Part shown: positions 20,286 to 40,865 of the stretch, piece by piece
Numbering within the stretch: the stretch's first letter is position 1
Layout of the letters: each line of letters begins with the position of its first letter
Assembly: GCF_007752135.1 (NCBI RefSeq)
Contig: NZ_CP036298.1
Span: 2,542,001 to 2,606,000 of the forward strand
Direction of reading: 5' to 3'
Source of the DNA: Aureliella helgolandensis
GTDB taxonomy: Bacteria > Planctomycetota > Planctomycetia > Pirellulales > Pirellulaceae
DNA: 64,000 nucleotides
Translations under genes and position numbers: made by a program
Notes under the pieces: generated by a model
What the model was told of the DNA's origin: nothing
The model's database searches: none
The model's input: the letters and a program-made list of their open reading frames with translations, nothing else

Positions 20286-20304
20286 ATCGCGTTTAAAGCG
20301 ACAA

Positions 20305-20817: not shown

Positions 20818-20874
20818 TATCGTGTCCTTTAAATGGAATGTAGCTAAGCTAACCGGGGTAATTGAGAGAGGTCG

Positions 20875-20903
20875 CGCTCCGATGTCGGATAGACATCGGA
20901 GCG
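20875..20903 (-). terminator. Perfect 12-bp hairpin between tssC and hcp
   Basis: The arms 20875-20886 (CGCTCCGATGTC) and 20892-20903 are perfect reverse complements with a 5-base loop. It lies 50 bases after the tssC stop and 58 bases before the hcp start on the leftward transcript. No T-run follows. It could be an RNA-processing or stability element, or a leaky terminator that separates hcp from tssABC. Confidence 0.6.
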
Positions 20904-20952
20904 AATAGGAAATTTAGATGTAGGTGGACTAAGTACACTAGTCTCGAGGGGC

Positions 20953-22428: not shown

Positions 22429-22527
22429 GTTGAGCTCCGTTTGGGTTTTGTATTGAGATGATGGTACGGGCAAAAGTGCCCCGAATAGTCAATTCGCGAG
22501 TGAGGATGGCCTTGCAGCCGCAGCCAA

Positions 22528-23055
22528 CTAGCCAGCTGGTGCAGGCTCGGGCTCACTCACTTCGACACCCATTTCCGATGCCAGAACTCCGGCAACGTCA
22601 CTGTTGTTCAACACGTCGGCTAAGAGCGATTCAAGCTTGTCATTACCTTCGAGCTTGTTCAACAGTTGAGCCAATTGGCCACGCATGTCGAGCAACTCGT
22701 TCAACGCTGGGATCTGCTTAGCAATGTTGGCTGGTTCGAAGTCTTCCATGTTTTTGATGGAGAGTTCGACGGGCAATTCTGTATTGTCGTCCGTCAGACG
22801 GTTGGCGACACGCGTTGCAACGCGGGTGTCCGATTTCGAAAGAACCTCGTTGAAGTTGTCACGATCAATGGGAACGAATTTGCGTTCCTTCATTGGCGCC
22901 AAGGCTTCTTTGGGATTGCCGGAGAGATCGGCCATGACACCTACGACGAAAGGCAATTCGCACTTTTCTAGTGCGTCACCGGTTTCTACGTCATAGCTGA
23001 TTTGCACGCGCGGACGGCGGACTCGATCCAGTTTGTGCTGAAGACTCTCGCTCAT
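22528..23055 (-). CDS. tssB: T6SS sheath small subunit TssB
   Basis: A 175-residue protein with the canonical TssB/VipA pattern: RRPRVQISYDVETGDALEK at the start, LPFVVGVMADLSGNP, ERKFVPIDRDNFNEVL, and the ELSIKNMEDFEPANIAKQIP region that contacts TssC. The C-terminus ends in a Pro/Ala/Glu tail (EVSEPEPAPAG). The start is set at the ATG at 23055, with AGGAG 7 bases upstream; a longer reading to 23094 is less likely. It lies directly upstream of tssC. Confidence 0.97.
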   Translation of the reverse strand: MSESLQHKLDRVRRPRVQISYDVETGDALEKCELPFVVGVMADLSGNPKEALAPMKERKFVPIDRDNFNEVLSKSDTRVATRVANRLTDDNTELPVELSIKNMEDFEPANIAKQIPALNELLDMRGQLAQLLNKLEGNDKLESLLADVLNNSDVAGVLASEMGVEVSEPEPAPAG

Positions 23056-23125
23056 AAAATTGCTCCTGATCAAAGAACGAATGGATACTGACAAAAAGTA
23101 CGAAGGAACTCGAGGTGATCAAGAG

Positions 23126-24549: not shown

Positions 24550-25242
24550 ATGAACGATGCGTTTTCTAATATCGTGCATCCGGTAATCGAATACGGCCTA
24601 AGTCTTAAGTCCCGAATCGATGCGGGAGCCGAATTGGACTTGGAGTATCAACAATCGCGACTAAGGGACCTGCTCCTGTCCGAAGATGAGTCGCAGTTGC
24701 ATGCCGAGTTCGGATCCGACCAACAACCGGCAAATCTACATACGGCTACTGATCTCAGTGCGACGCCCGGAAGAATGACCAATCGGTTTTGGGGGGTACG
24801 GTACGGACTGGTATGTTGGCTAGACGAGCTGTTTACCAATTGCCCCCAGTGGGAACAAGCTTGGAACGAAAACAAGCTAGAGTCGCAATTATACGGTACC
24901 AACGACCGCGCCTGGAAGTTCTGGGAGCAGGCTCGATTGGCGCAGACTCGCGCGGGGCTTAGCGCCTTTGAGTGCTTCTATCTGTGTGCAAGTCTTGGGT
25001 TCCGCGGCGAACTGCGGGACCAACCTGACAAGCTGCGGACGTGGTGCCAGCAAGCGAAGTTGCGTTTAGGAAGCGTTTCGGAAATTCAATTTCCGTATGT
25101 GACCGAAGTGAATCATTTCGATAATGCGCCACCCTTGCGCGGTGCTACCATGTTCAATCGGATGGCGGTTTCCTGTTGGATCGCGACGCTCGTCATCATA
25201 CCTCTCATCGCATTTGCATTCATGAATCGACTTGGCGATTGA
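24550..25242 (+). CDS. tssL: T6SS membrane-complex protein TssL (DotU-like)
   Basis: A 230-residue protein with a cytoplasmic helical domain and one C-terminal membrane helix (SCWIATLVIIPLIAFAFMN), the TssL/DotU plan. Family signatures are FWGVRYGLVCWLDELF (the 'Y-x-x-A-x-x-D-E-x' helix), NKLESQLYGTNDRAWKFW (counterpart of 'LE-x-x-LFG'), and LSAFECFYLCASLGFRGEL (compare 'LELYYLCLLLGFEGKY'). It lacks a C-terminal peptidoglycan-binding domain. TssL anchors TssM and contacts the baseplate. It lies 176 bases upstream of the short tssM. Confidence 0.93.
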   Translation: MNDAFSNIVHPVIEYGLSLKSRIDAGAELDLEYQQSRLRDLLLSEDESQLHAEFGSDQQPANLHTATDLSATPGRMTNRFWGVRYGLVCWLDELFTNCPQWEQAWNENKLESQLYGTNDRAWKFWEQARLAQTRAGLSAFECFYLCASLGFRGELRDQPDKLRTWCQQAKLRLGSVSEIQFPYVTEVNHFDNAPPLRGATMFNRMAVSCWIATLVIIPLIAFAFMNRLGD

Positions 25243-25418: not shown

Positions 25419-27185
25419 ATGAAGTGGATCACTCAAGCAATCGGTTCTCATTTGAAGCAACTAGGCGCGATCCTCGCCCTCCCGTTTCTGGATAAGAAGG
25501 GGGCAAGTTTAAGCCAGCGCATCGCGCGTTGGAGCCTGCACTTTGTGTGTGTTGTAGGGATTGTGTTGGGGTTAGCCTACCTCAATATCAAGCTGCATCT
25601 GGATGCCCTCTTGCTAACGCCAATCCCGGCCATGCGTCAGTATTGGCTACCCGCGGTCTTTTTGCAGGTATATGCGTTAAGCTGGATCGCTTGGTGGATG
25701 TTCCGATTGTCCTCGTCGCAGCAACCAGCGGCCGCATATCCAGCTATCTTCCGAGCGTGGAATCGGGCACTGGCGTCCCTAGAGAATGCGCAGATTGATC
25801 CCACGAACACGCCTTTGTTCTTAGTAATTGGCAAGCCACAGGGTGGTACGGCAAATTTCCTCAACGCGGGGCAAGTAGAGCGTGCGATTGCCTGCACGTC
25901 GCCAGACTCTGAGATGCCGGTGCAAATCTATGCGGGGAGGGAAGCCATCTATGTATGCTGTGAGGAGACTTCCTTGCTGGGGCGGCAAGCAGATCTGATT
26001 GCCCAATCGCAGCAGGAAACCAACATCGGTAGTTTGAGTGCCCTGAGGGGCCGGACTGCAGTGCGCCCCACCGAGCCCGTGTGTCCGGCTGAATTTGAGG
26101 CAACCGGAAGCGAGGGGCTGAGCATAGCGGCCGTCGGAGCCGATCCCGTGGAATCGTCACGAACACCTCCCGCCTTGCCGAACGGAAGTCTACCGCAGGG
26201 GGCAGGACCCTCCCTGCTAGAAATGCAGCAGCCTCTCCCGGCCGGTAGCCAAGATCGGATGCAAGCACTGACAACCCTGCAGACGCATCTCGACTTGCTC
26301 GGAGATCCTGCACCAGCAGACGGGCCAACGAACGCCACGTCTGCTAGCCCATCGCCGACCTACCAACCGGCGCTGAAGCAGCGACTGAGATTGTTGCAAG
26401 ATGCTCAAGAGATTCAAGAGACGAATGCGCAACTCAAATACCTTTGCAGTTTGATCAAGCAGGCTCGCTATCCGTATTGCCCAATTAATGGAATTGTAAC
26501 GCTCATTCCATTGGCGGCCACGGAGACTTCCGCCGTTGCAAACCACGCTGGGATGCTGATTGAGTACGACTTGCAGGCGATTACCGATTCGCTGCAAATT
26601 CGAGCGCCACGCGTGGCGGTCATTTGTGATATCCAAAACGAAGAGGGAGGGCTCGATGTCCTTGACCGCTTTCCAGAACAGCAGAGGCATCGCCGCTTAG
26701 GTGTGAAATTTCCTTGCGTACCGAGCTGCAATGCGTCCGACATGGATCGCATGATCTCGGACGGTATCAAGTGGCTTTGCCAGCGAATGGTGCCTCCTTT
26801 GATCAACCGACTTTTTCAAACCGAGCGTTCCAACGGGACCTCTCAGGATGCGGCTAGCTCTTGCAATCGTCGCCTCTACCACTTCATGTACAGCATTCAT
26901 CAGCGAAGCGGCAATCTGGAACGTCTCATTCGACGCGCTTTCTTGGGCAATCAACAGCCCGGAGAGTTGCTCCGCGGATGCTACTTGGCAGCCACTGGAC
27001 GCGATACGGTCAGCGAGCAAGGCTTTGCGGCTGGTATCGTCAGCCAATTGATGGACATGCAGAATGATGTTCAGTGGACCGATGAGGCGTTGTTGCATGA
27101 CCGAGATTGCCGCCGTTGGTCGATCCTGGGATATGTGAGCGTATCGATGGTGGCTTGCATCGCAATATTGCTGATCCTCCTGTAG
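25419..27185 (+). CDS. tssM: Short TssM/IcmF-like protein lacking the periplasmic domain
   Basis: TssM normally has about 1,100-1,200 residues, with cytoplasmic NTPase-like and large periplasmic domains. This one has 588. It opens with two hydrophobic segments at about residues 32-55 and 70-92. An NTPase-like part follows, starting FLVIGKPQGGTANFLNAG (residues about 130-148), where the P-loop Gly-Lys-Thr/Ser is not preserved. A long Ser/Pro/Gln-rich insert covers about residues 190-320. IcmF-like sequence then resumes with YLCSLIKQARYPYCPINGIV, matching the 'L-x-x-x-R-x-x-x-P-x-NG' motif. It ends with a third helix (ILGYVSVSMVACIAILLILL) and stops there. The frame ends at a hairpin shared with a convergent gene, so it is a complete gene. 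Identification rests on these motifs and the tssL neighbour. Confidence 0.82.
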   Translation: MKWITQAIGSHLKQLGAILALPFLDKKGASLSQRIARWSLHFVCVVGIVLGLAYLNIKLHLDALLLTPIPAMRQYWLPAVFLQVYALSWIAWWMFRLSSSQQPAAAYPAIFRAWNRALASLENAQIDPTNTPLFLVIGKPQGGTANFLNAGQVERAIACTSPDSEMPVQIYAGREAIYVCCEETSLLGRQADLIAQSQQETNIGSLSALRGRTAVRPTEPVCPAEFEATGSEGLSIAAVGADPVESSRTPPALPNGSLPQGAGPSLLEMQQPLPAGSQDRMQALTTLQTHLDLLGDPAPADGPTNATSASPSPTYQPALKQRLRLLQDAQEIQETNAQLKYLCSLIKQARYPYCPINGIVTLIPLAATETSAVANHAGMLIEYDLQAITDSLQIRAPRVAVICDIQNEEGGLDVLDRFPEQQRHRRLGVKFPCVPSCNASDMDRMISDGIKWLCQRMVPPLINRLFQTERSNGTSQDAASSCNRRLYHFMYSIHQRSGNLERLIRRAFLGNQQPGELLRGCYLAATGRDTVSEQGFAAGIVSQLMDMQNDVQWTDEALLHDRDCRRWSILGYVSVSMVACIAILLILL

Positions 27186-27197
27186 CGGATCCACCAG

Positions 27198-27222
27198 CCC
27201 TGCAAGCCGCCGGCTTACAGGG
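27198..27222. terminator. Hairpin between convergent tssM and giant protein gene
   Basis: Arms of 11 bases (CCCTGCAAGCC and GGCTTACAGGG) around a 3-base loop form a strong stem with one mismatch. The stop codon of the leftward gene (27217-27215) is inside the stem. It probably acts as a bidirectional terminator. Confidence 0.6.
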
Positions 27223-30200
27223 ACAGGGAGACGTCTCCTCGGGCAGTCTGTCCCGCAGCTACGTTGACGATCAATCCCCCTTTGCGACCATTGGCCGGTT
27301 TGCTGGAATGCACCGTGTATTGGCCAGCTGGAATACTCTCGAACTCAAATTGCCCATCAAAGCGTGTCTTCGTCTTGGCAACCAGCTGGTTCTTCTTGCC
27401 CAGCAAGATGACTTCTAAATTGGGTTGACGGATCACACCTTCGAAGACTTGGCCCGCAATGTTACCGACGTCCAGTTCCTTGGCAGGTACAACGTCGATG
27501 GACTGTGTCTCAACCGTGGTTAAGCCAGCGCCATTAGTCACGATTGCAGATATTTGCACGGTTCCTAGAGCTTTCGGTATTGCTATCTGACCTGTCCAGC
27601 TGGAAACATCCTCGGTGGATACTAGTTGCGTTACGGGTGCGCCAGCCGGGGGCTTGCCGTCCTTCATTTCTCCGAGGAAGACTTCCCCCGCTTGGATTCC
27701 AGTTAAAGGGGATTCAGCGGAAACTTGGATGTTAAGTTCAGTGCCTGCAGCCACCCGAGAAGGGAGCTCTGAGAATCGCACCGAATCGGGAGGTCGGTTG
27801 TCAAGAGAGATGGGAAGCGTTTGCTGGGCGAGACTGTTGGCTCCGAGTGCCAAATTTGCAGTTAGGTCGCGTCGGCCGACAAGATTGGTGGTGTCCAGCT
27901 TGAGGTCCCAGTCCTGGCAGGAGACGCTGAACAGCAGCTCCCCAGCCGGTAAGGCCACGAAGCCGATACGCGTCTTCTGAGGACTCGCAAGCGCGACGTG
28001 AAGGTCGGGTTGCGCACCTTCGGAATTGGGTTTGGCAAAGCTCAGGTCGAGGTGAGCATCGATTGGAGCGTTGTCTACCTGGACTCTGACTGGAAACTCA
28101 GGACCGGCCAGCCTTCGCTCAGAGGCCTTGATCTGAATTTGCGGACGGGTGACTAGCCGAGGAGTGGTAGGGCCCCCTTGGCAAGCGAAGGTGGATTCGA
28201 ACAGAAAGCTTCTAGCAACACCATCGATCGCGATTTCGAATCGCCCCGCTTCGTTTACAACTTCGTCGAACCGCAAATTCTCTGCGTACAGAAGAGTTGG
28301 ACTGCCATCGGTGGGCAGTTCGGTCTCAACCTTGCCTCCAGACACGGAGATAAATCCCGGCATGCTGTCGGAATGGAATCGGAGTTCAGCCGTGCAGGGA
28401 GGACCGGCAGGAATTTCGTGGCCGCGCAGCCAAACTTCTAATCGATTCCGCGATTGCGCAAACGGTGTGAAACTGGCTGACAGGATTTCCACGTATTCCC
28501 TCGGTGCCGCTATCTTGATCGAATAGGTTTCCGAGGTGAGGACTTTCGACGATTCCGAATCCAGGACTTGGACATGCAGCGGGTTGACCAGATCGGGGAA
28601 TTCGTCAGCGGTTTTGGGACGTTTGCCGGTGAAGGGAATCGGAATGGTTTGCAGGGGGCCGAGCGTGACGGGGATAGCGGTAGCACCCATCACGATCTTC
28701 ACCACTCGCTTTTGACTTTCTAAGTTTTGCAATTGCAACTGATAGCTCTGCAGTGTCGCTGATGGACGCAGATCTAGGGAATTCAACGGCTCCGATTTGC
28801 CCGCCGCCGTCAAGAGTAAACGCAGGGATTGAATCGTTCGTTGCGAATGGACAGAGACGCGATGGAGATAGGTTGCGCCGGATAACTTGATCTCCGCAAA
28901 GAAGCCTTGTGGTGATACTCCAGGGGGCGTAGCTGGAGAATCGCCGATTTCAACTTTGAGCCGTAGTGAAGAAGAGCTACCGGGTGCCACTCGAATGGTC
29001 TCAACGGATGGGTGAGCGATCAACTCAGAATTGGTCGGAGGTAAACATGCGACTTGCAAGGTAGCCCGTGAATCGGAAATTGAAGGACTTGCGGGAGCTG
29101 ACGTCACATGGTGCGGTGCCGAGACCATGTAGGGAATCTGGAGCGTTGCTTGGGGAGTCTCTTGGCTGAGTGGCGGGCTTGCCGATTGTCCCGCTACGAC
29201 GAGTGGAGGAGTCGAGGGAGCATTGGAGGCTCGGCGGTAGCGTTGCGCCAGGCCGGCATAGTGCTCGGCGAGCGGCGAATCCTGGGAGAGTTGCAGATAA
29301 ATACTAGCTCTCTTTGCCCAGAAGTGTTGCGCGAGCAGCAAGCGTGTGGCGACGTCCGACTCCATCGATCTTGGATGGTTCTTAGGTTTGCTATGACCGG
29401 TGGAAGAATTTCCAGCCTGCGGTTGAAACGTCGCAAGACTTTGCTGGTACATGAGTCCGACTTCGCGCTGCAGGGAGTTTGCTGGGAGGCTGAATTTCGG
29501 CGGTGCGTTCCACGCCTCACTTTTCTCGCTGTTCCAAACTGAGTGGTGCAAGCGTTTCGATAGCGAGATGGCAGCATGGAAGAGCGTCACTCGATCCTGC
29601 GTCTCGAGAAGGCTAGTGGAAAGCAGATTGCGTAGTTCCGCTAGAACCGAGGTGTCGGCGGTTTGCTTCGAACTGGCTTCAGCCAATTGAGCGACGTTTT
29701 CCGACGAGTAGACGGAGCTGAGTTCTCCCAGCAATCGCTCCAAAGTTTGTGCGGAAGCAATCGCATCATTGAGCCGCCGCTGACGGCTGGGAGTGATGGG
29801 GATTTCCTGGCTACGCAGTGCAGAGTCAGGGAGACTTAAACTCTCTTCCAAAGCAAGCGTTGCCTCCAATGCTTGCTTCCACAGTTCAAATCGGTGAGGG
29901 TGGGAGTGGAGTATGGGGAAATATTGTGGAAGGACCCAATGGGCTTGGGTGATATGGTCCAATGCACTCTGCAGCAGGGTCGACTGGGCAAGCAATTCGC
30001 TTTGAAGTTGTTTGGCCGACTCCAGCCGTTTCTTAAAGTATTGGTGCGACACAAATGCAGGATGCCAGAAGAGCGTTTCTACAACGTAGCGTTCATTTGC
30101 GGCTTGTGCGTATTGGGAGGCCAGCCAAGGCCAAACGCGTTGCTCGGTCGTGCCATCGGAGTCTCCTGCAATGAGTCGCAGCGTATCTTGGACATACTGC

Positions 30201-32020
30201 AGCGGCCATGGGAAATCTGAATCCCCGGCAGTTTGCTGAGCCAATGTAACCAAAATTGCCGTTTTCGTCCCACGCGGCTTACTAGCGCATGCTTCTGAGA
30301 TTGTGGCCACAACGCTCAGCTGACGAGGATGCAAATTTGCGGCTTGGCAGACAGAATCGTACAGAGCGTCGGTTGTTTTCTCTGTGGGAGTCGCAGATGT
30401 CTTGGCGAGATAGGCATCTACTAGCTTTGAGATCTTACCGGCAATCTGTGGCTCTGGACCGGCTGTGTATACGGCTTCGATGGCGGCTAATAGCGTGGCG
30501 GTAGCGTCCATGAGTTGTGAGCGTGATAAAGCCTGGGGAGGTTTGTCAGAACTCTGGGCTCCGGCAGGCTGCGGCGGTCCACCGGCCGCGTCAGGAGATG
30601 CCGGCACTGCGGCTGGCGGCGTTAGTTGGACTGCAAGTTCAAATGGTGGATTGCTTAAGAGAAGCACAGGGTCCGTGAGCGAATCTCGCTCGGTTGCATA
30701 GGAGTCGAGAATTTTGGAGAGGTCGAGCTGAAGTTTGGGCTCGATCCATTCCGCCAGCGTGTCTCGTCTCCAGTTGTTCTCTGCGTCTAAGATCGCTTTC
30801 TCGTATTCGATTAACAAACGAGAGTTGATGCGATAGGCTTGGTTGGCGACGAGATTGTCTCGCGATTGCCAAGCGGCGATCAGCCAAGTGGGATACTCCG
30901 GATGAGTTAATTCGGTTGAGTGCTGTGCCGGTTTCTGTGACTGAGGGGGGGCCGGCGTCGGCGCAGTAGTGTCCGCAGTGTCCCCAGTGTTGGTCTTTGC
31001 AACGAGTTTGGTTGCAGAGGGGGCTTGAGGCTTGGCTGCGGAGTTGGATTGTTGAGCAGTACTGCCGCTCTTCGTACTGAACAGGTTGGGCGTTCGAGAG
31101 GCGTTCGTAGAGTAGGTGACCAAATCGAAATCCGAGGTGGCACCCAGCCGACGGGGAGTTTGTGGCGAGGCGCCAGCTTGCTGCGCGTAGTTCGCAACCA
31201 TCGTTGTTAGGTAGTCTGCAAGCTCTCGCGTGTCGACTCGACCGTTGGGAGTTTGACCTTCGAATCCATCGGCTCTACCCTTCAAGGCTTGTTCGAATTG
31301 AAATCCGAAAATGGACCGGTGGGGAGCATAGATTAATTGAGGCTGTTGTCCTGCGGAACAGGAGGTGATCACGACAAGGTGTTCGTCCTTAGAAGCTGCA
31401 ACCTCACGTTCCACCTCCGCAAACAAGTCATGTGCTTGCTGCTCTTGAACGGTGGCTGGCCCCAACGAAGCGATGTCGAGCACTAACAGCTTTTGCGTTG
31501 ACGGACACGCCTTGAACTTGAGGAGCAGATCGGAAAGCTTCATGCGATTGTCGGCGGACTGGCTGCCATGCTGGTTGAGAAGCAGTGAGACATTGGTCTC
31601 AGAGTCTACTTTGCCCCACCCTGAGAAGTAAAATAGGATGGGGGTATCCGAATCCACCAGCTGCAATTGCTGTAGCTGGGCAAAGAAGTGCTGTTTGGGA
31701 GAATCGAGTGATGTGCGAACTACATGCTCAGGGAAACATCCCTCGAGTGCCACTTGGTCATCAGCGACGGGGCCTATGTCACCACTGAATTGATCGGTTT
31801 CGATCATGATCCAGGCTGGAAAGAAGAGCGTTACTGGTTTGACGCTCAGAAGCGACAGCAGACCGAGCGTCGTGCCAGAGGTAACGAGGAACGCGAGCAG
31901 CAAGAGTTTCGATACGCGGACCAGCAGCATCGACCGCCAAGTCGTTGGGGCATCTTGCTCCGCACGCCAACGCGGACTCACTGGAGATCCTGCCTGGGAC
32001 TCATTCGGCGTTTGCGACAT
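27215..32020 (-). CDS. Giant membrane-anchored protein with degenerate caspase-like domain and carboxypeptidase-regulatory-like C-terminus
   Basis: From the ATG at 32020 the protein has 1601 residues. One membrane helix (SKLLLLAFLVTSGTTLGLL) lies near residue 45. At about residues 65-320 is a caspase-like (peptidase C14) fold: ILFYFSGWGK near 132 sits where YFSGHG would be, and LLVLDIASLG near 181 where LxLDxCxSG would be, so both catalytic His and Cys are lost. VVITSCSAGQQP and the end RVDTRELADYL fit the fold. A Pro/Ser/Ala-rich linker, a long helical part (about 400-980) and beta-rich Ig-like segments follow. The last 80 residues (TKTRFDGQFEFESIPAGQYTV) form a carboxypeptidase-regulatory-like domain. 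It lies inside the T6SS island, 49 bases after a paralogue. A reading to 32125 would overlap that gene. Confidence 0.8.
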   Translation of the reverse strand: MSQTPNESQAGSPVSPRWRAEQDAPTTWRSMLLVRVSKLLLLAFLVTSGTTLGLLSLLSVKPVTLFFPAWIMIETDQFSGDIGPVADDQVALEGCFPEHVVRTSLDSPKQHFFAQLQQLQLVDSDTPILFYFSGWGKVDSETNVSLLLNQHGSQSADNRMKLSDLLLKFKACPSTQKLLVLDIASLGPATVQEQQAHDLFAEVEREVAASKDEHLVVITSCSAGQQPQLIYAPHRSIFGFQFEQALKGRADGFEGQTPNGRVDTRELADYLTTMVANYAQQAGASPQTPRRLGATSDFDLVTYSTNASRTPNLFSTKSGSTAQQSNSAAKPQAPSATKLVAKTNTGDTADTTAPTPAPPQSQKPAQHSTELTHPEYPTWLIAAWQSRDNLVANQAYRINSRLLIEYEKAILDAENNWRRDTLAEWIEPKLQLDLSKILDSYATERDSLTDPVLLLSNPPFELAVQLTPPAAVPASPDAAGGPPQPAGAQSSDKPPQALSRSQLMDATATLLAAIEAVYTAGPEPQIAGKISKLVDAYLAKTSATPTEKTTDALYDSVCQAANLHPRQLSVVATISEACASKPRGTKTAILVTLAQQTAGDSDFPWPLQYVQDTLRLIAGDSDGTTEQRVWPWLASQYAQAANERYVVETLFWHPAFVSHQYFKKRLESAKQLQSELLAQSTLLQSALDHITQAHWVLPQYFPILHSHPHRFELWKQALEATLALEESLSLPDSALRSQEIPITPSRQRRLNDAIASAQTLERLLGELSSVYSSENVAQLAEASSKQTADTSVLAELRNLLSTSLLETQDRVTLFHAAISLSKRLHHSVWNSEKSEAWNAPPKFSLPANSLQREVGLMYQQSLATFQPQAGNSSTGHSKPKNHPRSMESDVATRLLLAQHFWAKRASIYLQLSQDSPLAEHYAGLAQRYRRASNAPSTPPLVVAGQSASPPLSQETPQATLQIPYMVSAPHHVTSAPASPSISDSRATLQVACLPPTNSELIAHPSVETIRVAPGSSSSLRLKVEIGDSPATPPGVSPQGFFAEIKLSGATYLHRVSVHSQRTIQSLRLLLTAAGKSEPLNSLDLRPSATLQSYQLQLQNLESQKRVVKIVMGATAIPVTLGPLQTIPIPFTGKRPKTADEFPDLVNPLHVQVLDSESSKVLTSETYSIKIAAPREYVEILSASFTPFAQSRNRLEVWLRGHEIPAGPPCTAELRFHSDSMPGFISVSGGKVETELPTDGSPTLLYAENLRFDEVVNEAGRFEIAIDGVARSFLFESTFACQGGPTTPRLVTRPQIQIKASERRLAGPEFPVRVQVDNAPIDAHLDLSFAKPNSEGAQPDLHVALASPQKTRIGFVALPAGELLFSVSCQDWDLKLDTTNLVGRRDLTANLALGANSLAQQTLPISLDNRPPDSVRFSELPSRVAAGTELNIQVSAESPLTGIQAGEVFLGEMKDGKPPAGAPVTQLVSTEDVSSWTGQIAIPKALGTVQISAIVTNGAGLTTVETQSIDVVPAKELDVGNIAGQVFEGVIRQPNLEVILLGKKNQLVAKTKTRFDGQFEFESIPAGQYTVHSSKPANGRKGGLIVNVAAGQTARGDVSLSL

Positions 32021-32069
32021 ACGTTTCGCTCTTTGCAATTGACTGCGGTTGGATGCTACAAATGATCGA

Positions 32070-35000
32070 CTACAACGGTCGAGCGGCGTTGGACTGTGGC
32101 GCCACAAGAGGCGGGAAAGCGACATCGTCCGAGGATGGAGTCGTCAGGCTGTCCAGGTTGAGAATGTAGCCTTGTTGTTCCGCAGTCTTCTTCAGATCTC
32201 GCAGTGAAATCAGTTCAATACCGGAAAGACTGTGCAAGGCATCTTCAGGTAAAATGGGCCAAAATACGCCTGTGTATTTACCAATTTCATCAAAGTACGA
32301 TTCCTGTTTACCCGTGAATTCTAGGCCTATTGGACGAATCCAGAATTGCTCGCCCGGAGTGTGCCGAATTCGAACGACGAGACATGGCTGCTGAGTGCTC
32401 TTGCCCTCGCTGGTCTCGATGGTGCGTTTTTCGATACTAGCTGACTCGATCACGACGGTTCCGCCTTCCACATCGACGCTGCGAGCATTCAACTCTGTTA
32501 ACGTGTTGTAGTCGCGGTGCAGTTCAAATCGGACGGCTGCCTGAGTCTTGCGCTCCGGATTGAACCAAACCTTTAACTTGGGAAGTATCGGTTGGTTGGT
32601 CTTTGGCGCACGCTTCCAGTTCGTTGAATCGATCTTCCAAGTTGGCACTGGATAACCATAGCTACGTGTCCAGGTCATGGGAGACGAAATTTTCTGCCCT
32701 GTTTCATCGGAGAGTTCGAACCAGATGTCCGCCGGAGACAGTTGCTGAAGGAGCGAAGTGCCCTGGTCAGGAATTAGTTCAATACCGAACAACAGGCTTA
32801 GCTTGCTGCTTGAGTCGATGCGATTTTCCAGAGCCGTACCGATCCAGTTCTTGGCGGTTTGATTGGGTTTCCAGCTAAAGTCTGTTTGGAGGTAAGGGAG
32901 GCGTCTGAATGCAAGCTGCTCCCCGTCGCGTTGGAGTTGCACGATCATGCGATCGTCCGCGTGGAGGAACAATTGCGTAGGTGTTGCCGAAACGCTATTC
33001 CATAATTTGTAGTTTCCAGCAGGTAAGGGATTGGGATACCACTTGTCATCATTGGTCAGCTCACCCGCGTCAAATTTCTCGCGTGTGGGGCTGAGCTGTT
33101 GATTGGCGTAGTTATCAATCCAGTACTGGAGACGCTGGTGGAGCAAAGTCGTTAGCGTCCGCGCTAGTTCGGGAGCATTGCGAGTTTCGACATACGCTCC
33201 GGGAGGAGTGAAGGTGCGGGTCACTTCGAATTGTTTCCGTGCGGCGGCTTGTTCAGCAGCCTCGACTTTGAAACCCACCACGTTGAGGCAAATGTCACTG
33301 TGGTCGAATGCCGCCTTCAGAGCCTCGCCAACGCTGGCAACTTTTTGCCCAGCAGCAATTGGATTGTCGCCCAACGATTTACCGAAGCGGTTGTCCATGC
33401 CGTCAGTGATGACCAGGACGGTTTTGTAGCCGGGAATTCCTAGCAGATCTTGTTTGGCGGCCAGAATCGTTTCAACAATCGGGGATTCGTTCCATGGTTC
33501 GATATTGGGATAGTCAATCTCTTGCAGGATGGATTCAATTCGACCGCTATCCTGCGTATTCCAGATCACGGGTGCAACGACACGATGAATGGTTTCTTCA
33601 GCATGGCGCACTGTTTTTTCTGGACCGACCGCTTGGCCCGAGATCCAGATGCTGAGGGTCACGCCACTCGGCAATGCTTCGAGCACCGACTTGAGAGCTC
33701 GTGTTGCCTCATAATACTTGGCCGATGGACCGAACGGCTTATCCCGTGGGGATCCCATGCTGCCCGAAGCATCCAGGACGATCGCCACACCGCCAGCTCC
33801 CTTGCCATAAGTACTGTGTACATCGTGGGCCGCCCGTACGGAGAGCATGGCAGGTGCCAGGGAAAGTTGGCTCGTGGTTAAGAGGTCAGGTATCGGGTGA
33901 AAGTGAACTGGAATGTTTTTAGTTGCGATAGCTCCCCGGAAAAAGCTGTTGACGGTTATCTGCTGTTGGTCGTTCAATTTCGGTGTGGCACCGGGAGAGG
34001 CGGTACGACTCACGTAACGTGGCGATTGTGCGTTGGCGGGTTGGCGGGGATCTACGTCTGTCGCTGATTCGGTGAATGGATTTCCAACATAGCAGGCTTC
34101 CAGGCTAGCCTTATGGCCCAGCTCAATTTTCTGAACCAACTTCTGGGAGGGGAGCGGCCGTTCGATGTGCAAGGCATCCTGATCCGCGACCCACAGAAGT
34201 GGAAAGCCGCTCAAGGCTGAGTCTTTCTCGCCGAGTTCCACCCCGAGTTCAAACTGTAGTTGAGGCTCGGTGGTCAATTCGAGCTGCTTGGGGACGATCA
34301 ATTGGAGGTCCGCGGGATGGTCTAGGCGTTGCTGCACAGAGGCCAGTTGGTCGTTGTGGTCCCACAGCCGCTTGGCCGCTTGCAGAAGTTCTTCGGCGGA
34401 CTGTATGTAAAAGGGACGCGGCGTCTCCAAGCCTGCCCAGTGGTCGAGTTCCACCCGTGCAGCAAGCTCGACGAGCAAACGCGATTGCATTCGGTCGCGA
34501 TGAGCGATTCCGACCGAATTGCGAGGAGCTGCCGTACCTAAACCGCCAAAGATGCGGGCTGCATTGAGAAGTCTATTGTTGCCATTTTCTGTTGAAGAGG
34601 GGATGGCTGCGGCCGCCAGCGTGGTCGTAGACGTCGGCGCCGGTTTGGTGTTCGCCGTGCCTGTAGTGGCCGCAGCCTTTGCTCCTTCGGTGAGCCCCGA
34701 GGGGATGTTCTCGCGCGAAACCGGCTTGCCTGCAGAAGCTGGGGAAGAAACATCTAGAGTGTTGAGACGCACGGCGATTTGCTGAGAAATCAAATGGAAG
34801 GATTTTCTCCAGTCATCTTCTGTGGGGAGCACCTTCAAGCGGTATTGGGTTTGTTCGTAAGAATCGAATTCTGTCGAAGGAAGTGAATTGAAGAGATCAC
34901 GGCCAATGAGCGACAGAGCTAAACGTCCTTGAACGACTGCGGTTCCGATCGCTTGTTCGCGCTCGAGGTGTGAAACTTGGTTCAAGGAGGCAGCCTTCGA

Positions 35001-37370
35001 ATCCTTCGAGGACTGAGAGGCAGAGGCCTGTTGCTGAGTTCGGTGGGGTGTGGCTAGGTGGCGTAGATTACCACGACGTTCATGTTTTAAGAGTGCCAGT
35101 CGGACCGTGGGTGCGCCATACGGGATTGACAACATTAGCGAATTGGCGGCACTGGAATCGGGTTGCGGGCCGTCGGTTTGCGACTTCCACCAGGTTGCAA
35201 GACGATCAGAAAGGGTGGAATAGGCAGTCGTGACAATTTCGGTCTGCCGAACAACCTGCTCCAAGTTCGAAACAAGCTTGGGGACTGGGACAGACGCTTC
35301 GGTTGTTGCTGGCGGGCAATCGAGAAGTTGGGTCAGTTGGTGAGCGCCTTCCAAAAGTGCTTCGAACTGTTGCAGGAGGCTGTCCTGTTGGGAATGAAGA
35401 TGAGCACTGGCGTTCGCGGCGACAGCACTGGCAAAGTGTGGCGCTCGGGAGAAGACTTCATTCCGAAGGGCAAGTGCGGCACCGATTTGCGCACTGGCAT
35501 GCATGGCCCGCTGGTAGCCGGCGGTAGCACGCGCGAAGAGAGGATCTGCTTTCACGCGATCGTCCGCATCTGCGAAGAGCAGGTCTTCCGCGAGACGTCT
35601 CTGGTGATCCGCTTCCCGAACTTCCTGTTGAATCCAAGGTAGAAGCTCTTCGGAATAGGTGTAGCCGACTCCCGTGAACCCGAGGGCGGCATGCTCGGCC
35701 TGTTGCCGAATCGTAAACGCCGTTTGTAGGCGTTCCCTATCAGACGCGTCGAACGCTTGGAGCGGTAAATGCTTCTCCAGCATTCGCAAAAAGTGAATCT
35801 CGGTCGGTTCCGAGACCAAGGGGTCGGAGATGACTTGTGCAATTTTGGCTGCTTGCGGAAGCAGGCTGGTGGGGGCTGCCACCACGCGATCGTAGATTAG
35901 ATTGAAGACGGCAATTCGCATTTCGGCGATCGCTACGGAATCGTTGTTGAGTTTTCCGGTAGCCGTTTGCCAAATCGTATCGCGCTGTGTTTCGTTCGCA
36001 TTCCACAAATCGTTTGCAATGGATTGGGCCGTGCTGGGATTGGCGGAATGGCCGCTCAGAGCCGTTCCCAACACGAGTGAATTTTGGGAAGCGGCTATGG
36101 CCTGCTGCGCATCCCATTGGAGCTGAAAGCTTAAGGTCAGCATGCGTGCGTGAACCGCATTGGCGCCGGCCATGTCACCCGCCTGAATCAGACTTTCATA
36201 GCGAAGCAGTATCTCTTCAAATTCACGCCAACGCGCCGGGGAGTGCGTAAAGGGTTTGATGGGTTGGGCAAGCATCTTGTGATACTGCTCCCATGCCTCG
36301 GCGAGCGAGGGCGGTGGAGGATTGCTTGCTGCCAAGTTGGATTCAGAGGGGGCCGACGGAGTGAGGAGATTCAACTGGATTTCGGCAGCGCGCTTGTGTC
36401 CCAGTGCTCCGGTCGGCAGCAACCAGGCCTGTTGAGCGCCCACATGGTTTTCGGCAACCCATTGGTGGATGTTCCGATTGGTGTTGTCGTAAACTTCCCA
36501 GGCATCGATCCTTCCATCCAGGTTGGCATCTTCGACAGAGCCGCTAAGGGCGTCAACCATGAAATGCCCAAAGAGAGTTTGATTCTGCGGCCCAGCCAAG
36601 GACAACTGGCCATCGCTGGCTGCACACACCACCACTAGGTTTGGAACGGCCACAATATCTTGTTCAAGCTCTTCCAGCGAACGCGCAAAGTCATTGCGTA
36701 GCATCCCATATCGCCAATTGGTGTCGAAGTGGGTCGCGTCCAGAATTAGCAGCTTGTGCTTTTCTGCGGGCAGCTTGCTGAGAGTGGCGATGATCTGTTG
36801 AACTCTGAGGCGTCCGCTCAGGTCGGTGGGCTCGCAATCATGGGGGAGGAGATAGGCCCCCTTCTGATCCGCGGCTCCATGCGCGTTGAAATAGAGGACA
36901 AGCGTTTCTTCTGGAAATCGGTCGAGACCGAAATCCCAAGGTTGTCCGCTCTGCAAAACGATCGGTGGTTGGTGTAGGTGCCATTCCGAGTGGGCACCGG
37001 TGGGGAGTGAGCCGGTGGCGAGTGAGCCGCTGGGGTCCACCAGTTCAGCCAAGGCCAATAGCGAGTTCCAGCCCTGCACATTGTGAGGAACCGTCAAATT
37101 CTCCTGGTAAGCAGCGCCGACCAAGGTCAAGCGAATTGGGGAGGAAGGCTTGAGCCAAGTCAGCATCCACCACAGCGAAGCCCCCAGAGCCACCAATGCG
37201 ATCCAAGCGACGATATAGCGCGCCGATTGCAGGTGCTGCGATAGGGCACCCGTGCGTGGCCGCCAATTGCGTCGTTGGGCGGCTAGCGGCATGGGAAACT
37301 CATCTGCTGGTAGCAGATCACCGTCAACCGCTCCGTCACTGCTGGAACTCATCTGTGCATCCGTTCTCAT
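32070..37370 (-). CDS. Giant membrane-anchored protein with degenerate caspase-like and VWA domains (1766 aa)
   Basis: The N-terminal 50 residues are basic and cytoplasmic, followed by one membrane helix (YIVAWIALVALGASLWWML). At about residues 80-330 is a caspase-like fold: LVLYFNAHGAADQKGAYLLP near 155-175 keeps the His, but LLILDATHFD near 205 lacks the catalytic Cys, so it is probably inactive. A long helical part follows (about 350-950). Near residue 1198 GGVAIVLDASGSMGSP gives a VWA domain with an intact DxSxS metal site (about 1185-1400). The final 350 residues are beta-rich. The domain order resembles that of the next gene, so the two are probably paralogues. They sit between tssM and vgrG, and a role in the T6SS envelope complex is proposed. 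The ATG at 37370 is used; 37352 is an alternative. Confidence 0.8.
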   Translation of the reverse strand: MRTDAQMSSSSDGAVDGDLLPADEFPMPLAAQRRNWRPRTGALSQHLQSARYIVAWIALVALGASLWWMLTWLKPSSPIRLTLVGAAYQENLTVPHNVQGWNSLLALAELVDPSGSLATGSLPTGAHSEWHLHQPPIVLQSGQPWDFGLDRFPEETLVLYFNAHGAADQKGAYLLPHDCEPTDLSGRLRVQQIIATLSKLPAEKHKLLILDATHFDTNWRYGMLRNDFARSLEELEQDIVAVPNLVVVCAASDGQLSLAGPQNQTLFGHFMVDALSGSVEDANLDGRIDAWEVYDNTNRNIHQWVAENHVGAQQAWLLPTGALGHKRAAEIQLNLLTPSAPSESNLAASNPPPPSLAEAWEQYHKMLAQPIKPFTHSPARWREFEEILLRYESLIQAGDMAGANAVHARMLTLSFQLQWDAQQAIAASQNSLVLGTALSGHSANPSTAQSIANDLWNANETQRDTIWQTATGKLNNDSVAIAEMRIAVFNLIYDRVVAAPTSLLPQAAKIAQVISDPLVSEPTEIHFLRMLEKHLPLQAFDASDRERLQTAFTIRQQAEHAALGFTGVGYTYSEELLPWIQQEVREADHQRRLAEDLLFADADDRVKADPLFARATAGYQRAMHASAQIGAALALRNEVFSRAPHFASAVAANASAHLHSQQDSLLQQFEALLEGAHQLTQLLDCPPATTEASVPVPKLVSNLEQVVRQTEIVTTAYSTLSDRLATWWKSQTDGPQPDSSAANSLMLSIPYGAPTVRLALLKHERRGNLRHLATPHRTQQQASASQSSKDSKAASLNQVSHLEREQAIGTAVVQGRLALSLIGRDLFNSLPSTEFDSYEQTQYRLKVLPTEDDWRKSFHLISQQIAVRLNTLDVSSPASAGKPVSRENIPSGLTEGAKAAATTGTANTKPAPTSTTTLAAAAIPSSTENGNNRLLNAARIFGGLGTAAPRNSVGIAHRDRMQSRLLVELAARVELDHWAGLETPRPFYIQSAEELLQAAKRLWDHNDQLASVQQRLDHPADLQLIVPKQLELTTEPQLQFELGVELGEKDSALSGFPLLWVADQDALHIERPLPSQKLVQKIELGHKASLEACYVGNPFTESATDVDPRQPANAQSPRYVSRTASPGATPKLNDQQQITVNSFFRGAIATKNIPVHFHPIPDLLTTSQLSLAPAMLSVRAAHDVHSTYGKGAGGVAIVLDASGSMGSPRDKPFGPSAKYYEATRALKSVLEALPSGVTLSIWISGQAVGPEKTVRHAEETIHRVVAPVIWNTQDSGRIESILQEIDYPNIEPWNESPIVETILAAKQDLLGIPGYKTVLVITDGMDNRFGKSLGDNPIAAGQKVASVGEALKAAFDHSDICLNVVGFKVEAAEQAAARKQFEVTRTFTPPGAYVETRNAPELARTLTTLLHQRLQYWIDNYANQQLSPTREKFDAGELTNDDKWYPNPLPAGNYKLWNSVSATPTQLFLHADDRMIVQLQRDGEQLAFRRLPYLQTDFSWKPNQTAKNWIGTALENRIDSSSKLSLLFGIELIPDQGTSLLQQLSPADIWFELSDETGQKISSPMTWTRSYGYPVPTWKIDSTNWKRAPKTNQPILPKLKVWFNPERKTQAAVRFELHRDYNTLTELNARSVDVEGGTVVIESASIEKRTIETSEGKSTQQPCLVVRIRHTPGEQFWIRPIGLEFTGKQESYFDEIGKYTGVFWPILPEDALHSLSGIELISLRDLKKTAEQQGYILNLDSLTTPSSDDVAFPPLVAPQSNAARPL

Positions 37371-37877
37371 TTAACACCAGTGGCCGCACCTCACGCTCGG
37401 CAGATCCGTGCGGTGAGGCCTTGCTTTCTAACGGCAGGACATGAAATGGAGGAACAATCGGTTTGTCCCTGCGCTCCTGACTGTCGAAAAAAGAAGTCCT
37501 GGGGAATGTTTCGGAGTTTGAGACCTCTGTTCATTGCTCGATGACGCGATGAAACGGATGTGACACTGGCGTAAGCAATACACAGCGTTCTAATCATAGG
37601 GAGGCTAACTAGCGCCAAAGCCTACGAGTGCTATATCGGGCACAATCGGATTGTTGGCAAACTGGATAAAGGCTGAGGGCTGGAGCGGACGATAGCTGCC
37701 AGGTTGCGAATGCTTGGACTGCAAACAAGCCAACCGTGGAAGGATGCCCGGCAACAAGCCACATCAGAATCAGCGCGCCAACACGCAACCATGTCGTAAG
37801 CAGGGAGGTAGTAAGCGGCGAGATGCTTCATTTCTGCGGGACATTGAAAATTGAATCCAACCAATCACAATCGAAAA
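37371..37877. promoter_or_regulatory. Divergent intergenic region between giant VWA gene and vgrG
   Basis: This 507-base region must hold promoters for the leftward giant-gene pair and the rightward vgrG set. No gene is convincing here; a 75-codon leftward frame at 37618-37391 has no known motif. An in-frame TTG at 37851 could extend VgrG by nine residues. Confidence 0.4.
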
Positions 37878-40865
37878 ATGCGTCTAACGACGCCCTTGCC
37901 GGAGGGGAGCCTCTTCATCTCCAAGCTCAATGGGCGCGAAGCAATCTCGGAGCTCTATTCGCTTGAGTGGGACGTGCAAGCCCCCCGGCATCGTCAGTTC
38001 GACATCTTCTCCTTGCTGGGCAAGGATGTACGGGCAGATATCGAATTGCCCCGCTCTGACTCGGTGCAGGCCTTGGTCAACGGGCAGGTTCCCGAATTGA
38101 AGACACGCCGATTCTGCGGAATGGTGCGGGAGGCAACCGAGCGATTTGAAGATGACGATTTTCGGTATTTCCGTCTGACGGTCTGTCCACGCTTGTGGCT
38201 CTCGACGCAAAGCTCCAACTGCCGAATCTTCCAAGAGCAGACCATTCCCGAGATTCTGAAGAAGCTCCTGCACGGCCTCAACGTGGAGTATCATCTCCAC
38301 GATGAATATCTCCCTCGCCCCTATTGCGTGCAGTACAACGAGACCCAATTCGAGTTTCTCAAACGTCTGTGCGCCGAAGCGGGAATCTTCTTCTACTTCA
38401 AACACCAGTATGAGGGCCAAGATGACGAACAACGCCAACGTGGGGAACGTCTTGTCCTTACTGACGCTGTGCCTGGTCTGCCGTTGATCGAATCCTATCC
38501 CGATCTCCTCGATCTTTCTGGGGACCATGCTGACGGCATTGTGGAGTATGAACGTAGCGATGGCGGAACGCGCGAAGATCTACGAATCACACGCTGGAAT
38601 AGAACACAGCGATTGGTAACGACAAAATGTACGGTCCGTGACCAATCGTTTCAGCTACCGGGCCAAACGTTGGAAGCCAACGAAGAAATTGTAAAATCGG
38701 TCGATGTCGGAGGGGTGCAGCATGAGTTGAAGTGCGTCGACGATGATTTAGAAATCTTTGCGTACCCTGGACGCTATGCGAAGTGTTTCGACGGCATTGC
38801 ACCAGGCGGAGACCAACGCCCCGACTCACTCAAGCATATCTTCAGCCAAAATGCTCTCGTGGCCGATCGGCAGATGCAACGCCAGGCAGCCGCCAGCATC
38901 GCAATCGATGGGGCGAGCAATTGTCCAAACTTGGTACCAGGGCATCGCTTCCAACTAAGCCATTCGGGGAAAACTACGGGACCGTATTTCGTGCTAGCGG
39001 TCCAGCATGCTGCCCAGTTGAACGCCGATTTTCGCTCGGCGGACTCCCAGGAGGAACTCAGCTACGAGAATCAATTCACTTGCCAAGCAGTATCCCTGCC
39101 CTACCAACCGCTTGAAGTGCATACGCAACCGCGCATTCACGGTTTTCAAACGGCCACGGTCGTCGGGCCTGAGAACGAAGAGCTCTTCAGCGATAAGTTT
39201 GGTCGAGTCAAGGTGAAATTTAATTGGGATCGCGAGAGTGCAGCCAATGCTGACAGCTCGTGCTGGATCCGTGTCGCGCAGGTGTGGGCAGGCAACCGGT
39301 GGGGAGCCTTTTTCTGGCCGCGAGTCGGGCATGAAGTTGTGGTTGTTTTTGAACATGGAGATCCCGATCAGCCGCTGATTGTGGGAAGCGTTTACAACGC
39401 CAAAAATATGCCACCCATTCAGCTGCCTGGTGGATTGAAGTCTGGCGGAATCAAGTCGTGCACCGTGGGGGGGAATCCCATCGAAAATTTCAGCTGTGTG
39501 ATATTCCACGACAATCCCGGGAGGGAGTATTTGCAGTTGCACTCAGAAACGCATGAATGTGTGACGAGCGAAACGGCGAAAGTCAATTACTCTACCGGCC
39601 CTGGGATCAATTTTCAGGGTGGCTCGAATCACCTGATGAAGATGTTTGGCAGTGGAGCGGGAGGGGGCCCCTCGACGCCGCTTCCCGCCAGCGCTCGCGA
39701 ACAATCCAAGGGCGAAAGTACTTCCAAACAGCCATGGGGAATGGCCAATGGCCCGAACCTCAGTGAATTCGAAGGAATCCTAGATCGCAATGTGATTGAG
39801 GCGATCGAAGCATTCCAGGAGGTGGGAAGTGGAAGTGGGGGATGGATCGCTGGTGTAATCGAAAGTGCTGGGGGATTTCCCAAGCAGGGAGAGCACGCGA
39901 AGGAAGCCGCCGAACGGGTCGGCATGAAGAATGAGGTTGGTTCGCTAGCCGTGGTTACTGGGAACTCGTTGGAAATCGGTCTGGGCGGAGAGGTCAAACA
40001 CCAGTTCGCAGGAAGCACGACTGTTGTCGCGGATCTCGAGGGGTTGGTGGAGAGTTTGTTGGTGGCTCTGGCCACGCTGGCGGTCACACGGGAAAAAACT
40101 GATTTCCTCAAATGGACTCAAGGCGGCGAATTGAAGCAATTCTACGGCTCCAAGAAAGATATCGTTTACGGGCATGCCGTCGACATCCATCGCGGCACCG
40201 AGATGAAAGTCACTGCAGAGCACTTTCTACGGGGCCCGGTACGAGTCGTTGTCGCGGGGAATGACAAGCTGACCTATGGATCTGCATTGTCAGCTACCGC
40301 TCATTCCGCGGTACGTGCCATCGCCATTCTGCTGCTACTATTCGATATTGCCGTGGCGATCGCCATCAAAGTTGAGATGGAAACGCCCCCCAAAGAGTCA
40401 GAAAAACCAGAAGACTCCGACAAAGATAAAAGCAAAGCTGGAGACTCGAAAAAAAATGAGTCAGTGAAAACTTCGGAATCGACTGAAGCGTCTAAAAAGC
40501 CCACTAGCGCCGAGATCGCTTGGAAAAAGCATATCGATACGCTGGCGGTGTGGTCGACGCGCGGTGAAGCCGTTCTACTGAAGCTCGAAACACTCTTCGA
40601 GCAAGTTTTTGCCGCCACCACTCAAATCGAGAACGATACCACTAAGCAAGTGGACGACTTAAAAAATATTACCTTCGGTCTTGTGCGGGTCGAAACGTGG
40701 AGCAAGCTAAGAGACGGGATCAAGCAGAAAGCGGAAAGCGTTAAGAATTCAATCGTCAAAAATCAACGTGAGCTTATTCTGCTGGCTGCAGGAATCGTGT
40801 TTTTCGCGGGGATAGTTGGCTGCGCCGCTGCGGAAGGACTTACTTCAAACAAGAGCGACAATTAG
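37878..40865 (+). CDS. vgrG: T6SS spike protein VgrG (TssI) with long C-terminal extension
   Basis: VgrG trimers cap the Hcp tube. The core is clear: LTTPLPEGSLFISKLNGREAISELYSLEW at the start (split at residues 1-30), FCGMVREATERFED, the gp27-like YCVQYNETQFEFLKRLCAEAGIFFYF, then a gp5-like OB fold at about residues 425-515 with FGRVKVKFNWDRE, SSCWIRVAQVWAG and FWPRVGHEVVVVFEHGDPD. After residue about 575 comes an extension of some 420 residues that is not standard VgrG. It has a Gly/Ser-rich part, a helix-prone part, a hydrophobic segment (AIAILLLLFDIAVAIAI, about 812-828), a Lys/Glu/Ser-rich linker, a predicted coiled coil, and a last hydrophobic segment (ILLAAGIVFFAGIVGCAAA). The extension may be an effector domain. 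The ATG at 37878 is preferred. Confidence 0.93.
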   Translation: MRLTTPLPEGSLFISKLNGREAISELYSLEWDVQAPRHRQFDIFSLLGKDVRADIELPRSDSVQALVNGQVPELKTRRFCGMVREATERFEDDDFRYFRLTVCPRLWLSTQSSNCRIFQEQTIPEILKKLLHGLNVEYHLHDEYLPRPYCVQYNETQFEFLKRLCAEAGIFFYFKHQYEGQDDEQRQRGERLVLTDAVPGLPLIESYPDLLDLSGDHADGIVEYERSDGGTREDLRITRWNRTQRLVTTKCTVRDQSFQLPGQTLEANEEIVKSVDVGGVQHELKCVDDDLEIFAYPGRYAKCFDGIAPGGDQRPDSLKHIFSQNALVADRQMQRQAAASIAIDGASNCPNLVPGHRFQLSHSGKTTGPYFVLAVQHAAQLNADFRSADSQEELSYENQFTCQAVSLPYQPLEVHTQPRIHGFQTATVVGPENEELFSDKFGRVKVKFNWDRESAANADSSCWIRVAQVWAGNRWGAFFWPRVGHEVVVVFEHGDPDQPLIVGSVYNAKNMPPIQLPGGLKSGGIKSCTVGGNPIENFSCVIFHDNPGREYLQLHSETHECVTSETAKVNYSTGPGINFQGGSNHLMKMFGSGAGGGPSTPLPASAREQSKGESTSKQPWGMANGPNLSEFEGILDRNVIEAIEAFQEVGSGSGGWIAGVIESAGGFPKQGEHAKEAAERVGMKNEVGSLAVVTGNSLEIGLGGEVKHQFAGSTTVVADLEGLVESLLVALATLAVTREKTDFLKWTQGGELKQFYGSKKDIVYGHAVDIHRGTEMKVTAEHFLRGPVRVVVAGNDKLTYGSALSATAHSAVRAIAILLLLFDIAVAIAIKVEMETPPKESEKPEDSDKDKSKAGDSKKNESVKTSESTEASKKPTSAEIAWKKHIDTLAVWSTRGEAVLLKLETLFEQVFAATTQIENDTTKQVDDLKNITFGLVRVETWSKLRDGIKQKAESVKNSIVKNQRELILLAAGIVFFAGIVGCAAAEGLTSNKSDN

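Follow-up and report, generated by a model that had tools for sequence, protein, structure and literature searches.

Giant caspase-like proteins beside a truncated TssM: probable parts of a different type VI secretion trans-envelope complex in a class of planctomycetes

The tube of the type VI secretion system (T6SS) must cross the cell envelope, a passage that is known for the TssJLM complex and, in outline, for TssNQOPR. How is this passage made when TssM lacks its periplasmic part? The question is raised by a T6SS island in the genome of Aureliella helgolandensis (8.44 Mb, one contig), which lies in the stretch of 64,000 nucleotides analysed here and referred to as the window (NZ_CP036298.1, positions 2,542,001 to 2,606,000; feature coordinates are those of the window). 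The island encodes a TssM of 588 aa and, adjacent to each other between this gene and vgrG, two giant proteins, GIANT1 and GIANT2. From the distribution and anatomy of these proteins, we infer that the giants are probably structural parts of a different T6SS trans-envelope complex, in which they replace the periplasmic part of TssM. A preliminary description of the locus had proposed such a division of labour with the short TssM; distribution and anatomy support this proposal and suggest the function.

Truncation of TssM

TssM proteins of the T6SSi type have three membrane helices and a large periplasmic part. The window TssM (25419..27185, plus strand) was described earlier as lacking that part, which is confirmed here: it ends after the third helix (TM3; 27123..27179, plus strand), whose hydrophobic window is followed by one residue, and its only Pfam match of note is to the cytoplasmic IcmF-related_N part (PF14331, E = 1.9e-12), without IcmF_C. 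A search of the whole host genome for IcmF_C (PF06744) gives zero matches. Of the 13 complete aligned TssM proteins from the host's class, probably Planctomycetia (hereafter, the class), 12 end 0 to 7 residues past the last helix and the remaining one ends 17 residues past it. Among the TssM places listed for 347 class genomes, all open reading frames (ORFs) are shorter than 1000 aa, the largest having 962. A profile of the 13 short TssM proteins matches a profile of five long ones from other classes (E = 7e-20) over columns 95 to 442 of 1378, i.e., the match stops at TM3. The Walker A motif is found in all five long TssM proteins and in none of the 13 short ones. TssL (DotU), encoded at 24550..25242 on the plus strand (PF09850, E = 1e-14), consists of 230 aa, with a single hydrophobic segment close to the C end.

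Domain architecture of the giant proteins

As first described, the giant genes lie between the short tssM and vgrG (37851..40865, plus strand; PF05954, E = 4.9e-59). They correspond exactly to two ORFs on the minus strand, 27215..32125 for GIANT1 (1636 aa if read from the first ATG and 1601 aa if read from Met36) and 32070..37370 for GIANT2 (1766 aa). Homologues are found in other genomes; 17 GIANT2 and 18 GIANT1 sequences (alignments A1 and A2), 1463 to 1902 aa long, were aligned, with an outlier (L094) that lacks both the catalytic dyad and the vWA motif kept in the counts. Each giant has the one N-terminal membrane helix noted previously, at residues 74 to 92 of GIANT1 (31850..31906) and 53 to 71 of GIANT2 (37158..37214; these and all other giant features are on the minus strand). 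The N-terminal hydrophobic segment scores at least 1.75 in 33 of the 35 giants and 1.73 and 1.59 in the other two, and a second segment at or above 1.75 is absent from all 35. Positive charge is greater before the helix than after it in 31 of them.

The helix is followed by a predicted caspase-like domain, located at about residues 155 to 345 of GIANT1 (31091..31663) and 80 to 330 of GIANT2 (36381..37133). The N-terminal piece of the window GIANT2 matches Peptidase_C14 (PF00656) with 25.4 bits, above the cut-off of 21.4, and GIANT1 is tied to the caspase fold only via GIANT2 (E = 6e-6 in a two-sequence comparison). In what we take to be the caspase motif, the position of the catalytic Cys is occupied by Ala in the window GIANT1 and Thr in the window GIANT2; it holds Cys in 1 of the 35 giants (the GIANT2 of G032). 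The His position holds His in 16 of 17 GIANT2 proteins, including that of the window, and in 5 of 18 GIANT1 proteins (21 of 35 in all), the window GIANT1 having Trp. The giants are unlikely to be active proteases, because the catalytic Cys is missing in 34 of 35. The earlier claim of a caspase-like fold without intact catalytic residues holds for the fold, in GIANT1 by way of GIANT2, and for the Cys; the His is kept in GIANT2. Compared with caspases and metacaspases, nearly all giants have lost the Cys, and they include, in addition, a membrane helix, a helical part and β domains. Shorter caspase-like frames are also found in giant-bearing genomes, e.g., frames of 450 to 920 aa in G041.

The C-terminal 1200 residues of both giants were modelled. 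The two models (from six and five rows) have mean pLDDT values of 59 and 54 and are trusted only for the vWA and the last β domains. They place helices first and β domains after, in keeping with the long helical part and β-rich ends of the preliminary description. In GIANT1, a helical part predicted at about residues 438 to 967 (29225..30814; secondary structure of the low-confidence model) is followed by a string of Ig-like β domains at about 1074 to 1629 (27239..28906) and a CarboxypepD_reg-like end (27224..27424), whose match to PF13620 (E = 1.7e-6, 28.8 bits) is below the cut-off of 32.3. GIANT2 combines a helical part (residues 567 to 1015; 34326..35672), predicted on the same basis, with a vWA domain containing DASGS and ITDG motifs (about 1174 to 1419; 33114..33851) and, in the low-confidence model, a β-rich end (about 1450 to 1726; 32193..33023). 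The vWA metal site, made up of DxSxS and later T/D residues, is intact in GIANT2, the DxSxS motif being present in 16 of 17 sequences. The C-terminal half of GIANT2 matches solved vWA domains (best E = 5e-9); for the end of GIANT1, the matches are to NOMO2, SdrD and Ig-type adhesin domains, the lowest E value being 3e-22; the PDB matches of the models are to vWA and Ig-like domains and nothing beyond.

Co-occurrence of the giants with TssM

Profiles of TssM and GIANT2 were searched against the 347 class genomes; of the two giants, the counts refer to GIANT2. TssM matches are found in 147 genomes. GIANT2 matches at E = 1e-10 are found in 130 genomes, and a strict rule, set after the hits had been inspected, leaves 118 after dropping 12 with weak hits in short or unlisted frames. 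Misses are to be expected, since only three to four candidates per genome were scored. Short TssM and strict GIANT2 are found together in 116 genomes, TssM alone in 31, GIANT2 alone in 2 and neither in 198 (Fisher p = 7e-60). The corresponding counts are 121, 26, 9 and 191 without the strict rule and 103, 31, 2 and 198 without the 13 sampled genomes that supplied profile rows. The preliminary description had named wide occurrence of the pair apart from T6SS genes as an outcome that would speak against its proposal. No such occurrence is seen: strict GIANT2 is present in 2 of 200 TssM-free class genomes (G609 and G623, 75% and 65% complete), and 7 more have weak GIANT2 matches only, in short or unlisted frames. 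The converse outcome, T6SSs of this type occurring without the giants, is seen in part, as 116 of the 147 TssM-bearing genomes have a strict GIANT2 hit and 31 lack it, some of these being search misses. Since the short TssM has no periplasm-crossing part and giants are found in most such systems, they are good candidates for the replacement anchor.

A tblastn search with GIANT2 in 60 relatives, including the host genome itself, gives matches in 19 of 27 TssF-bearing and 3 of 33 TssF-free genomes. Not all 19 are full giants (in G003, the matching frame has just 276 aa and lies where a contig ends), and the best frames in the three TssF-free genomes, of 679, 797 and 1191 aa, are not giants. The eight TssF-bearing genomes with no tblastn hit are G005, G006, G007, G010, G011, G013, G018 and G046. 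Two of these, G013 and G018, which had been selected for TssF before any GIANT2 match was known in them, have giants beside TssKLM (both in G013, one in G018). In G006 and G007, a better profile picks up GIANT2, in frames of 1689 aa and 1503 aa, respectively. Giant-size frames flank TssM in G164, G195, G251 and G473; TssM has 556 to 561 aa in the first three, and in G195 the first of the flanking frames runs off the contig and is not matched by any of the profiles. In the four GIANT2-positive genomes that were looked at, both giants are located beside TssM in G439, G333 and G473, and none is found in the 20 kb of G421. Relatives in named genomes include at least 11 loci, at least 5 of which (L183 to L187) match over a giant and at least 6 over the vWA domain only. 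One contig titled Candidatus Kuenenia stuttgartiensis (L186) carries both giants; its title is probably wrong.

T6SSs outside the class

A sample of 274 genomes of the phylum includes 18 from the class and 256 others. TssF is found in 63 of the 274, among them 7 of the 18 class genomes. IcmF_C is found in none of the 18 class genomes versus 22 of the 256 others, 21 of which also have TssF. Matches to the vWA profile A5 that begin ahead of the vWA core, at position 50 or lower, are present in all 7 T6SS-bearing class genomes, whereas all matches outside the class start at position 80 or later. Matches to the GIANT1 profile A6 at E of 1e-20 or less are found in 5 of these 7 and nowhere else among the 274.

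Stretches of 20 to 60 kb were read in 16 out-of-class genomes. Five of them contain a complete TssM, of 1482 aa in G131, 1479 in G223, 1178 in G145, 1165 in G106 and 1302 in G231, with recognizable periplasmic IcmF domains in three. Profiles of the caspase-like domain, the vWA domain and the GIANT1 end detect no giant in the 40 to 60 kb around these long TssM proteins. TssM frames are cut by an end in G109, G304 and G155, and no TssM was identified in the other eight stretches. G109 encodes, on another contig (a stretch chosen for its vWA hit), a 1959-aa vWA frame without a membrane helix or caspase-like match.

A single origin of the class systems was considered but is not borne out: a TssF tree of 55 rows requires 7 changes of the class label, and its supported branches force at least 2. 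Given these label changes and some long branches, the tree does not establish that TssM lost its periplasmic part just once.

A second T6SS in the host and its relatives

At 5.126 Mb, the host genome encodes another TssF, which is accompanied by a separate TssKLM set and, nearby, by two more giants. This second system (L051, L052 and L093; about 5.085 to 5.145 Mb) includes a short TssM of 533 aa, and its two giants are of another subtype. In the TssF tree, a second T6SS lineage within the class is formed by rows G012C67, G012C124, G003C703, G023C105 and G034C170. One second-lineage locus of G012 (L094, 7578 to 12680) encodes a single-helix protein of 1700 aa that has no recognizable caspase or vWA motif and adjoins a HEAT gene.

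Several class systems of the second subtype (L052/L093, L055/L092, L101, L082 and L151) contain two tandem TssC-like genes, the second of which scores lower. Weaker matches to the TssC profile, of about 515 to 575 aa, are also found in L062 (1658 to 3211), L065 (1288 to 2862), L123 (10234 to 11787) and L181 (3964 to 5694), and those of L123 and L181 also match TssB. These weak TssC-like proteins possibly represent another contractile system or a fused sheath.

Observations that weigh against replacement

Several observations weigh against a replacement of the TssM periplasmic part by the giants. The first is the absence of a strict GIANT2 hit in 31 of the 147 TssM-bearing class genomes. The TssM regions of 15 of these were inspected. 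G597 has both giants and G579 the end of GIANT1 at a contig edge, i.e., these two are search misses; in G440, a 730-aa caspase-like frame adjoins TssM. In the other 12, no giant is found in 5 to 20 kb around TssM; 7 of them are on contigs of 5 to 12 kb, and the other 5 (G380, G364, G497, G484 and G544) were read over 19 to 20 kb. Family f109 accounts for 16 of the 31 exceptions, which is 16 of its 23 TssM-bearing genomes, and the TssM matches in these 16 are at E values of 1e-14 to 1e-60. Within f109, G433 and G469 have a TssM of 528 aa and no giant on contigs of 6.8 and 12 kb, and no giant is found within the 12 kb read around TssM in G389 and G472; in three other members, G407, G425 and G439, TssKLM is next to both giants.

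On the same side are the location of the giants far from TssF in G033, G032, G020 and G039, the presence of the second TssF lineage in several class genomes, and a bias in the neighbourhood counts, as many of the regions were chosen for holding a giant. As for the proteins themselves, sequence support for the caspase fold is thin in most rows: PF00656 is listed for neither giant in the whole-protein scan, it matches just 6 of the 35 pieces of alignment A4 at E of 0.1 or less, and a profile of these 35 caspase-like pieces matches no caspase among solved structures. The models of the giants are of low confidence. Finally, the giants do not appear to be the displaced periplasmic part of TssM, as hhalign comparisons of the five long TssM proteins with GIANT1 and GIANT2 give probabilities of 0.2 to 0.4%, i.e., no profile similarity.

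Alternative roles of the giants

The giants could be a T6SS-dedicated periplasmic module for sensing and gating, with the channel made by an unseen other protein. In such a module, the vWA and Ig-like ends would detect attack or contact and the pseudo-caspase domains would relay the signal. Domains of the vWA, Ig-like and pseudo-enzyme kinds are common in sensing, known T6SS sensor modules span the envelope, and the strict association with T6SS fits a dedicated regulator, too. However, truncation of TssM is not something that a regulator would require, and giants go with the short TssM and are unrecognized beside the long one. Besides, no kinase or phosphatase family is matched among the scanned ORFs of the island. 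A sensing role is therefore regarded as unlikely.

The resemblance of the GIANT1 end to adhesin and macroglobulin-type β domains, and the frequent binding of ligands by metal-site vWA domains, might suggest surface-reaching adhesins or target-recognition arms that merely share the T6SS neighbourhood. Against this, strict GIANT2 is seen in just 2 of the 200 TssM-free genomes, and both giants have an N-terminal helix of the inner-membrane type; this role is regarded as improbable. Caspase-type proteases or defence proteins, linked to the T6SS by chance or as its cargo, are brought to mind by the PF00656 match of the GIANT2 piece and by the shorter caspase-like frames in the same genomes. The absence of the catalytic Cys from 34 of 35 giants and the association with TssM across the class sample make this idea very hard to sustain, and the size and membrane helix of the giants would make poor cargo of them. 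Finally, a minimal T6SS, in which the short TssM alone is enough, no periplasmic complex exists and the giants do something else, would explain the 31 of 147 TssM-bearing genomes with no GIANT2 hit, but some of these cases come from search misses or from short contigs, and the tube is still required to cross the envelope, which leaves this scenario with next to no credit.

Replacement of the scaffold thus appears to be the best explanation for a TssM without a periplasmic part that is accompanied, across several families, by co-distributed membrane-anchored giants.

Predicted organization of the complex

If the giants replace the periplasmic part of TssM, then TssL and the shortened TssM would still dock the TssK baseplate at the inner membrane. 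The periplasmic scaffold would come from GIANT1 and GIANT2, both anchored by a single N-terminal helix whose tail is cytoplasmic. The pseudo-caspase domain next to the membrane might serve as an interaction module and the long helical part as a stalk, and the β-rich ends, with the vWA metal site of GIANT2 and the Ig-like and CarboxypepD_reg domains of GIANT1, would reach toward the outer membrane. There, TssJ may have its counterpart in a probable β-barrel together with a HEAT protein that is exported.

Both of these proteins are encoded in the island. The probable outer-membrane β-barrel (44139..45800, minus strand) is a 553-aa protein with no Pfam match of its own; in its family of nine members (A11), PF13557 is matched at E of 1 or less by four, the best at 1.3e-4. 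Judging from sequence, the family is probably exported, and its C-terminal half resembles an outer-membrane barrel. The HEAT-repeat protein (45747..46892, plus strand) matches HEAT_2 with E = 0.0019, under the cut-off, and by eye has a signal-like stretch after an internal Met. Eight of the 14 members of its family (A12) match HEAT at E of 0.1 or less; the N termini of the family look signal-like by eye, and in 5 of 14 a short hydrophobic stretch precedes a Cys. Members of the HEAT family turn up repeatedly in the class, in T6SS regions. Both families are found in G042, G018, G439 and L184, and the barrel is also found in L186 and G022; the stretches read outside the class yield no match to either at E = 1e-4. 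The two proteins are candidate outer-membrane components of the complex. We lean slightly toward the view that the T6SS trans-envelope complex of the class is of a further kind, consisting of TssL, a truncated P-loop-less TssM, the two giants, the exported HEAT protein and a dedicated barrel.

Relation to known T6SS types

The island has TssL and the baseplate and tail genes in common with T6SSi, the type that uses the TssJ-TssL-TssM complex, and as far as TM3 it also has the cytoplasmic part of TssM. It differs in the absence of the periplasmic domains and of Walker A from TssM, in the addition of the giants, the HEAT protein and the probable barrel, and in TssJ, which has no match among the scanned island ORFs (gaps between ORFs being shorter than 500 bases and the search being limited to the island).

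The closest analogy is offered by T6SSiii. In Bacteroidota, TssNQOPR replaces TssJLM and all five proteins are needed for Hcp release; TssR is a lipoprotein of 790 residues with a vWA domain, and TssP combines one helix with PKD domains (PMC10781749). Here, too, the trans-envelope complex would be a replacement, and both types share proteins made of one N-terminal helix and a periplasmic part, one partner each of the vWA and Ig/PKD types and loci that can be split. In contrast to T6SSiii, TssL and a short TssM are kept, and neither on the giants nor on the island proteins that were scanned is any T6SSiii Pfam family found. At about twice its length, GIANT2 is much larger than TssR and has an N-terminal helix instead of a lipoprotein signal, and both giants contain the pseudo-caspase domain. 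Homology with TssP or TssR was rejected, as no such Pfam family is found on either giant. The complex would thus be analogous to TssNQOPR rather than homologous with it, the likeness being one of domain kinds and topology, and no membership is claimed. The T6SSii of Francisella is described as a divergent system with its own components (PMC4793230). The planctomycete TssB, TssC, TssF and TssG match the usual Pfam models strongly; this comparison covers the shared proteins.

T6SS genes are on record for Rhodopirellula baltica (PMC2660368, PMC5394234, PMC2654662) and some freshwater planctomycetes (PMC6461901). No description of such a T6SS complex was found in titles and abstracts of the literature, with few subscription papers and no preprints covered.

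Other genes of the island

The window contains TssB, TssC, TssE, TssF, TssG, TssK, Hcp and VgrG, all recognized by Pfam matches. TssG, TssF, TssE, Hcp, TssC, TssB and TssA are encoded at 16557..24256 on the minus strand and TssK at 47047..48462, also on the minus strand (PF05936, E = 2.9e-74). ClpV/TssH is not among the scanned ORFs of the island, to which this search was limited. Small ORFs past VgrG include DUF6931 and Peptidase_C39 proteins. The 211-aa ORF after VgrG (40943 to 41578, plus strand) has a repetitive β-type sequence, and its relatives are found near VgrG in G042, G020 and G032. A GGDEF (diguanylate cyclase) protein (48873 to 49910, plus strand) adjoins TssK, a possible connection to c-di-GMP.

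Implications

If the giants do form the scaffold, this may explain how detection models that require the canonical membrane complex could miss such systems. The same baseplate and docking part would be seen to work with another scaffold, which would separate the true core of TssM from the portion that can be exchanged, and a dead caspase domain would be found to have a structural role within a secretion machine.

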